Position numbers and translations under genes: made by a program. Below are positions 1-47,641 of a stretch of 47,641 nt of DNA, piece after piece. Origin of the DNA: Candidatus Saccharimonadota bacterium (GTDB lineage: Bacteria; Patescibacteriota; Saccharimonadia; Saccharimonadales; Saccharimonadaceae); assembly GCA_017406775.1 (NCBI GenBank), contig JAFQXV010000012.1:1-47641 (forward strand), written 5' to 3'. The notes beneath the pieces are model-generated. The model saw only the letters and a program-made list of their open reading frames with translations, did no database searches and was not told where the DNA came from. The stretch's first letter is position 1, and the number at the start of each line of letters is the position of its first letter.

Positions 1-1
1 A

Positions 2-1051
2 ATCTACACAGCAGAAGCTGGTAAGACCTTAAAAGAATCTAATACTAATGGTACTACTTCCTTCCAATTTAAAATTGCCGCTAAAGCTTCTAACACCCAA
101 CCTTCTGGTGAATATAATAATGTGATTAATTTTACGGTGACCAGTAATCCAAGACCAATGGAGATTAGTGATCTAACCTATATGCAAGATTTTGCTACCT
201 TAAGTGAGACTGATATGGCTACAGTTTTAGCTTCTATGAATCTAGAGCAACAATACCAGCTGCGAGATTCTCGCGATAACAAAACCTATTACATATCCAA
301 ACTTGTGGATGGCAATATCTGGATGACGCAGAACCTAGATCACGACATAGACTCCACCAAGACTTACACTCCAGCCGATACTGATATTCCAGCTAACTGG
401 ACGCCAAGTACATCTACGTATGCTACTAGCAATACGACTTGGAATGGGTCGGATACTGCACCAGAGTCATATAATCCAGGTGATTACTACTGGAATGGTA
501 CCGATGGGATGAGTGCTTGGAGTGATTATTGGAATAGTGGTGGCACAAATCCAGCCTCAAACTTTATGAGTACTACTGGTAATTCTCATTATCACCTAGG
601 TAACTATTACAACTGGACTGCGGCTATGGCTATGAATGATAGCTCTAGCTATACTACAAGCACTACCCGAACAGATCAATCTATCTGTCCAGCTGGCTGG
701 ACTCTGCCTAGAGCTGGCAGCGGTGAGGATACTTTCTACGGACTTTGGAGCCAATATGGATATGATAATAGTGGCACCTTTAGCAACATTTCTACCTTAA
801 CTGGTTCCCCTGCTTACTTTGCTCCTACCGGCGGTTGGTACGGCTCGTTTGGAGACGTCGGCGCAGGCGGGTACTTTTGGTCGCCCGTCGTAGTGAGTAG
901 TGTCGATTCCTACTACGCCTACTTCTACATGTTTGGCGAAGCCGGCCCGTCCGGATACGACGGTCGCGACGTCGGTTACTCTATCCGTTGCGTTGCACGT
1001 CCAGTTGCTTCTACTATCGAGTGGGGTTCTGGTGGCGGGAATAACTACTAG
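2..1051 (+). CDS. Secreted FISUMP-domain protein, 5' end outside window
   Basis: The frame is open from the first bases, so the true start lies upstream; a GTG at 122 is internal. The first ~45 visible residues form the end of a beta-sandwich module (FQFKIAAKA...PSGEYNN) that resembles the plus-strand protein at 8432. The rest matches the Fibrobacter succinogenes major paralogous domain pattern (NIWMTQNLD, GNYYNWTAAMA, ICPAGWTLP, GYFWSP, GYSIRCVAR), a C-type-lectin/FGE-like fold used on cell surfaces. No C-terminal anchor is seen; the protein ends in a Gly/Asn-rich tail. Codon use changes abruptly from residue-equivalent 836 onward (see the variable-region entry). Ligand binding or adhesion is inferred from the fold only. 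It converges with pth. Confidence 0.75.
   Translation: MYTAEAGKTLKESNTNGTTSFQFKIAAKASNTQPSGEYNNVINFTVTSNPRPMEISDLTYMQDFATLSETDMATVLASMNLEQQYQLRDSRDNKTYYISKLVDGNIWMTQNLDHDIDSTKTYTPADTDIPANWTPSTSTYATSNTTWNGSDTAPESYNPGDYYWNGTDGMSAWSDYWNSGGTNPASNFMSTTGNSHYHLGNYYNWTAAMAMNDSSSYTTSTTRTDQSICPAGWTLPRAGSGEDTFYGLWSQYGYDNSGTFSNISTLTGSPAYFAPTGGWYGSFGDVGAGGYFWSPVVVSSVDSYYAYFYMFGEAGPSGYDGRDVGYSIRCVARPVASTIEWGSGGGNNY
836..985 (+). other. Candidate DGR variable region
   Basis: Across the 48 codons 836-979, 27 end in C (TAC, GAC, GTC, GGC, GCC, TCC, CCC, TTC, CGC), and there is no Asn, Lys or Thr codon. The preceding part of the same gene is Asn/Thr rich and AT-leaning. This is the footprint expected when AAC codons of a template repeat are adenine-mutagenised by a diversity-generating retroelement. 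The position (last 70 codons, lectin-type fold, ending at the GYSIRCVAR strand) also fits. No template repeat or reverse transcriptase is visible in this window, so the call rests on composition and fold. Confidence 0.5.
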
Positions 1052-10913: not shown

Positions 10914-11774
10914 CTACAAGGATACCGCAATAGAGCGGATTTGTTTATTGGTGAGCGAACCAGATTTAGTGATAATTTTATACACCACACCACCATTTAC
11001 CCAGGCCGCATCACTTTCACTGATGTAGAGTGTAATGCCCTGTTCGCGTACGGCTGTGTAATTATCTTCGTATTTATCTTTTACATAATTAGTTAACAAA
11101 GCACTTGAGTCCCAGTATGATTTTTCCTCGATCAAGTCAAAGCTCGCATCAGTTTTGCTATTATAAAATGAAATCGTAACTTCCCCCTCCTCAGACGTGA
11201 TGCTGGATACAGCAAAATCTCTCGGTACGTAGCTAGGATAAGATGCGTTAATTCCAGTTTGCATAGCTGCAACCTTTAAAGATACATCTGGCATATTTAG
11301 ATTTACAAAATAAACAATGGCAAAGACAGCTACAGCGGTACAACCTAGCGCAAGCATCACCCTACCAAAACCAAAGTGAATTTTGCCAACCTTTTCTTTT
11401 TTGACTTTTTGCGTCTGCTTGGCTTCAATTTGCTCGTCTTTAGCGGCTACTGCTAGTGCCTTACGAATAGCCTGATCCTTTAATTCTTTGGCGGAAATTT
11501 TTTGCGTTTGGGGTTGAGCTACCATTTTGCGCGCTCTTACCATAGCGTTAGCCGAGTTCTGCAAAGGGTGTGCTTTAGCGGGCTGAATAGTCTCTTTAGT
11601 GCTATCCACCTGCGGCATTTGAGTATTAAAATGACTAATCTTGCTAGAACGACTGATAGAGACTGGAACCTCGGCAGAACGAGTTGGTCTTTTAACGTAT
11701 CTCCTATTTAAAGTAGTCGAAGCTTGTACCCGTCGATGGGCATTTTGCGCTATCTGACTATCATTTCTTTGCAT
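10914..11774 (-). CDS. Single-pass membrane protein with basic cytosolic tail
   Basis: 286 residues, not firmly recognised. The first ~135 are polar, Arg/Lys/Gln rich and probably disordered in the cytosol (including TLNRRYVKRP near residue 21). One membrane helix (residues ~137-157) and a ~125-residue external domain follow. The external part (YVPRDFAVSSITSEEGEVTI, LYISESDAAWVNGGVVYKI) is reminiscent of DUF4367-type domains, which is only a weak similarity. GAGGT lies a few bases before the ATG. It is convergent with gltX and divergent from the PEGA gene. Confidence 0.6.
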   Translation of the reverse strand: MQRNDSQIAQNAHRRVQASTTLNRRYVKRPTRSAEVPVSISRSSKISHFNTQMPQVDSTKETIQPAKAHPLQNSANAMVRARKMVAQPQTQKISAKELKDQAIRKALAVAAKDEQIEAKQTQKVKKEKVGKIHFGFGRVMLALGCTAVAVFAIVYFVNLNMPDVSLKVAAMQTGINASYPSYVPRDFAVSSITSEEGEVTISFYNSKTDASFDLIEEKSYWDSSALLTNYVKDKYEDNYTAVREQGITLYISESDAAWVNGGVVYKIITKSGSLTNKQIRSIAVSL

Positions 11775-47385: not shown

Positions 47386-47415
47386 TTGACTATGCGACGA
47401 CATAAGCGGTATAAT
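47386..47415 (+). promoter_or_regulatory. Promoter of gene 47434
   Basis: TTGACT, 18-base spacer, TATAAT. AAAGGT serves as Shine-Dalgarno before the ATG. Confidence 0.65.
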
Positions 47416-47433
47416 TATAAACATAAAGGTAAT

Positions 47434-47641
47434 ATGCTAAGAAAGATAAAACAAACTATTATAATTCTAGGAGCAACGGCTGTTTTGCCACTAGTTTCTG
47501 TTCCCCACTCCTCCGCCCTCACCTACCAACAAGATATTCCAGTCTCATTCACCTTTAATTCTTCTATCATTCTTACGCTCTCCTCTGCAGATCTTAGGAT
47601 AAATAATCTAGTTCCTGGCACCGCATCAGATAGTAACATTA
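47434..47641 (+). CDS. Secreted surface protein, N-terminal part
   Basis: 69 residues visible; continues past the window end. Signal peptide TIIILGATAVLPLVSVPHSSA, then LTYQQDIPVSFTFNSSIILTLSS, a beta strand pattern like the start of the beta-sandwich protein at 8432. By analogy with the truncated gene at the window start it may end in a FISUMP or another surface domain, but that part is not visible. Confidence 0.65.
   Translation, partial: MLRKIKQTIIILGATAVLPLVSVPHSSALTYQQDIPVSFTFNSSIILTLSSADLRINNLVPGTASDSNI

Follow-up and report, generated by a model that had tools for sequence, protein, structure and literature searches.

A probable diversity-generating retroelement target in a Candidatus Saccharibacteria genome carrying three inverted-template cassettes

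A codon-biased block in a FISUMP gene

Does the codon-biased block near the start of this contig represent the variable repeat (VR) of a diversity-generating retroelement (DGR) and, if so, which template repeat (TR) wrote it? The window, that is, the whole analyzed stretch of 47,641 nucleotides, corresponds to the entire contig C10 of a 14-contig, 720,418-bp Candidatus Saccharibacteria genome (99.5%-complete assembly). Its first gene (positions 2–1051, forward strand, as are all window features below) is a 349-aa open reading frame (ORF) with an open 5′ end cut by the contig start. An earlier note, based on the letters of the DNA, had assigned the product to FISUMP-domain proteins, and the score against the FISUMP model TIGR02145 (46.3 bits; cut-off 41.65) confirms this assignment. 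The same note had proposed that positions 836–985, which are in frame with the ORF, constitute a DGR hypervariable region, citing an excess of C-ending codons and a lack of Asn, Lys, and Thr codons. The excess is real, although the count of 27 of 48 becomes 28 of 50 upon recount, compared with 64 of 299 codons in the remainder of the gene (Fisher p=1.4e-6). The lack of Asn/Lys/Thr codons likewise stands (0/50 versus 76/299 outside the block, p=3e-6), and codons of the ANN type are depleted (n=4 versus 114/299, p=8e-6). By contrast, the description of the block as spanning nearly every NNC codon was overstated: only 10 different NNC codons are present. Equally extreme 50-codon windows occur 13 times among the 39,277 (overlapping windows counted) in the long open frames of this genome. 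A structure prediction for the window protein, inspected for the C-type lectin fold, reached a pLDDT of 45 and gave no meaningful fold matches; a PDB sequence search with the FISUMP protein returned nothing useful.

DGR cassettes elsewhere in the genome

As the earlier note had stated, neither a TR nor a reverse transcriptase (RT) lies in the window. However, an RVT_1 profile search of the whole assembly recovered three RTs, on contigs C2, C12, and C13, each accompanied by a TR, so that the genome does contain the components whose absence, together with a lack of excess variation at these codons, the note had named as refuting its proposal. All three RTs carry the motifs IGN[LY]TSQ and YVDD, which conform to the DGR-type signatures [ILV]GxxxSQ and YxDD, and match the PHROG 1423 reverse transcriptase family with E values of about 1e-68 to 1e-72. 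PDB searches with two of the RTs ranked the 328-residue chain 8ub7_A first; this chain, titled 'Reverse transcriptase', is taken here to be the BPP-1 DGR RT.

Three DGRs can thus be recognized, each comprising an RT and an inverted TR, with five TR-matched VRs in total, the window VR not counted. In DGR1 (C13), a FISUMP gene with VR1 is followed by a putative accessory ORF, the RT, and TR1 on the opposite strand. Over 204 bp, TR1 and VR1 differ at 28 adenine positions and at 0 of the 151 other positions, showing that the DGR family is real and active in this genome. DGR2 (C12) has the same layout; within the repeat its TR and VR are mismatched at adenines only, with non-A mismatches beyond the repeat end. 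The TR of DGR3, located at the end of C2, has three matching VRs, which lie at the contig ends of C2, C7, and C4; each shows 18–24 A mismatches, and the few non-A mismatches are mostly found where the alignment ends on its 3′ side. Mismatches therefore fall at TR adenines in DGR1 and, within the repeat, also in DGR2 and DGR3, and the single DGR3 template seems to have three target genes or more.

An ORF precedes each of the three RTs. The three ORFs align weakly with one another (18–21% identity) and match neither a known family nor a solved Avd; PDB sequence searches with these accessory ORFs yielded nothing useful. The accessory ORF of DGR3 (L010:10997-11789) falls into two parts that lie in different frames on either side of a C run (near 11317-11325); a sequencing error, decay, or phase variation could account for this.

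The window repeat and its template

Positions 813–1016 of the window align without gaps over 204 bp to TR1 (C13:135940-136143). Within the diversified core (833–985), 31 of the 48 TR1 adenines are substituted, compared with 18 of the 105 other bases (p=1.5e-8), whereas a control on the upstream portions of both genes shows no A bias (9/57 adenines versus 53/184 other bases). Nearly all core A changes (28/31) affect codon positions 1 and 2, most non-A changes (13/18) fall at the third codon position, and every TR1 Asn codon in the core has been rewritten in the window VR. The repeat ends at the C-terminal core of the FISUMP-model protein, placing it at the 3′ end of the target gene. The conserved 3′ gene end (980–1051) is where an initiation of mutagenic homing (IMH) site would be expected, judging from the 3′-end alignment of the window, VR1, TR1, and the homologous gene from the sister species G039. 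Beyond the stop codon, a non-coding stretch (1060–1098; AGTATT..CC.CCTCC.GCCTTTCCG) is alike in the window, VR1, and TR1, and has no counterpart in the G039 homologue. No significant hairpin was detected after the window VR (in the 1060–1098 stretch) or VR1, whereas hairpins are present for VR2 and VR3.

The G039 homologue (locus L077) is intact, with a signal-peptide-like N-terminus, and provides a comparison between species, each represented by one genome. The window and G039 genes differ at 25 of 42 positions corresponding to TR1 adenines and at 10 of 114 others (p=2e-10). In the VR, pN exceeds pS (0.292 versus 0.215), whereas just upstream the relation is reversed (pN 0.099, pS 0.354); the excess is confined to the VR block. 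At ten non-A positions of the core, the window and G039 share a state that differs from TR1.

With A-biased mismatches to a genuine TR, the same bias relative to G039, and three DGRs in the genome, the proposal of the earlier note is largely borne out, and we consider it highly probable (about 0.9) that 813–1016 is a DGR variable repeat of a gene for a secreted, putatively C-type-lectin-like FISUMP protein of Candidatus Saccharibacteria. That no DGR is involved, and that the block instead reflects codon bias of the usual kind or selection acting on a lectin-like domain, is hardly credible. Other FISUMP domains in the genome (on C1 and C6) match no TR, so a FISUMP domain alone does not imply a DGR, but ordinary evolution of the domain would not account for a gap-free 204-bp match to a genuine TR in which substitutions single out the template adenines, a pattern that recurs in a second species. 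Simple codon bias is rejected by the base-specific test (31/48 versus 18/105) together with its upstream control.

In the mechanism that we favor, a DGR reverse transcriptase would misread adenines while making cDNA from a TR rich in AAC/AAT codons, and the mutagenized cDNA would replace the VR; NNC/NNT codons would result at set positions, with the remaining residues kept constant. The writer would be a sister of TR1 (denoted 'TR4') located outside the assembly and served by its own RT or, in trans, by one of the three RTs described above. The variable residues would be expected to face ligands, and the target protein may contact host cells, neighbors, or phages.

Active homing leaves the VR equal to its TR at non-A positions. 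VR1 is identical to TR1 at all 151 such positions; the window VR departs from TR1, the nearest template, at 28 of them. TR1 is thus not the present template, and the window VR is not an active target of TR1. Accordingly, the near-copy with mismatches at template adenines anticipated by the earlier note does exist, in the form of the 204-bp TR1, but the silent non-A differences mark TR1 as a sister of the true template. It is therefore very unlikely that TR1, from C13, writes the block as a remote DGR1 target: TR1 is the closest template and the homology spans 204 bp without gaps, but the non-A differences are mostly silent and spread evenly over both halves of the repeat, exact runs do not exceed 11 bp, and ten of the differences from TR1 are common to the window and G039. 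As the current template, TR1 was rejected, given the persistence of these silent differences. The A bias relative to G039, the ten shared non-A states, and pN > pS identify a template lineage sister to TR1, from which, on this comparison of sequences, the window and G039 genes descend or by which they are still fed.

No template closer than TR1 was found in the assembly by scanning the genome without gaps and scoring the non-A positions, or by blastn with the window VR. Using the window VR with A placed at the TR1 adenine positions as a query, no matching template was recovered from 174 genus or 394 family genomes, nor was one found in viral contigs with one constant-position pattern. These results, together with the lack of the post-stop element in the G039 homologue and of a detectable RT in the 79%-complete G039 assembly, would suit a fossil target, in which diversification took place in the past, 'TR4' was lost, and the frozen gene now undergoes ordinary evolution. 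We regard this history as possible but rather unlikely, because the excess of changes at adenine positions continued after the window and G039 genes separated, and because the assembly ends within this very gene family. More probably, 'TR4' still exists, unassembled, and would have the window gene as its active target.

The state of the assembly bears on this question. Both ends of contig C10 (window positions 1–250 and 47392–47641) lie within FISUMP-type surface genes. A stretch of 141 bp is common to three contig ends (C1-L, C9-R, and C10-R) and lies in FISUMP-type N-termini, the homologous counterparts of what the window gene lacks at its 5′ end; a search for contig overlaps found no partner for the C10 left end. 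A cassette immediately to the left of the target gene, as the earlier note suggested, would fall beyond this contig end. The FISUMP-type repeat family broke the assembly at contig ends, and an assembly that failed among these very genes may plausibly, though not provably, lack a cassette.

Template orientation and relation to known DGRs

To place the inverted TRs in a broader context, we considered DGR loci from the genus (L001, L002, L003, L080-L094, L125-L152) and from the wider phylum (L153-L182). An RVT_1 match is present in 95 of the 174 genus genomes. A TR/VR pair could be detected in 20 genus loci: the TR runs opposite to the RT in 18 of them, the VR remains on the RT strand in 12 of those 18, and the two exceptions carry other RT motifs (IGAMTSQ and IGSQISQ). 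In the wider-phylum sample, by contrast, the TR is on the RT strand in 24 of 26 loci and inverted in 2. When genus loci were counted by motif, the TR was inverted in 23 and on the RT strand in 4, indicating that TR inversion is common in the genus but not fixed. The loci, from genus and wider phylum alike, were picked by RT score and are not independent.

Orientation variants of DGRs have been listed by Yan et al. (PMC6642488), and the DiGReF survey reported, as a rare type, inverted DGRs whose TR and VR both run opposite to the RT (PMC3521204). The cassettes described here resemble the latter in having RT and TR on opposite strands, but DGR1 and DGR2 invert the TR only, with the VR staying on the RT strand. 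A literature search covering part of the key DGR surveys found no description of TR-only inversion. Tentatively, and with somewhat less than even confidence, we propose a DGR layout peculiar to this genus, in which the TR runs against the RT and often against its own VR, template RNA would come from a separate transcript, TR/VR inverted repeats flank the accessory ORF and RT, and several cassettes per sub-megabase genome diversify secreted FISUMP lectins, the window gene being served through a fourth, unassembled template. Inverted templates would make the production of DGR template RNA separately from the RT transcript amenable to testing.

Like the prototype BPP-1 DGR (target rules in PMC3240598), the system described here combines adenine mutagenesis with a VR at the 3′ end of the target gene, an RT, and a candidate accessory gene; unlike in BPP-1, the TR is inverted, and a significant hairpin follows some of the VRs only. 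Human microbiome DGR targets include 9 Fib_succ_major and 47 DUF1566 proteins (PMC4159848), the same target domain family as here, although, in contrast to those targets from human microbiome assemblies, the window gene comes without a template in hand. Among Patescibacteria/CPR, cellular DGRs were described by Roux et al. (PMC8144416), and genomes with multiple DGRs each have been reported (PMC10907252). In the excerpts of these accounts considered here, the likeness extends to a cellular location, a small genome, several cassettes, and a C-terminal VR; the same excerpts contain no mention of Saccharibacteria.

Saccharibacteria are very small and rely on other cells. In this one, three hypermutation cassettes and at least six variable genes of surface type within 720 kb suggest that the ability to alter contact proteins quickly lies at the heart of its way of life. 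Assemblies also break at target and template repeats, which sets a practical trap: the template of a real target can be absent from a 99.5%-complete genome. Apart from the DGR-related repeats, the window contains intergenic direct repeats at 1670–1860, with a period of ~60 bp and 78% alike, the last part of which is found again on C8, C2, and C12 at 82–89% identity, as a dispersed intergenic element.
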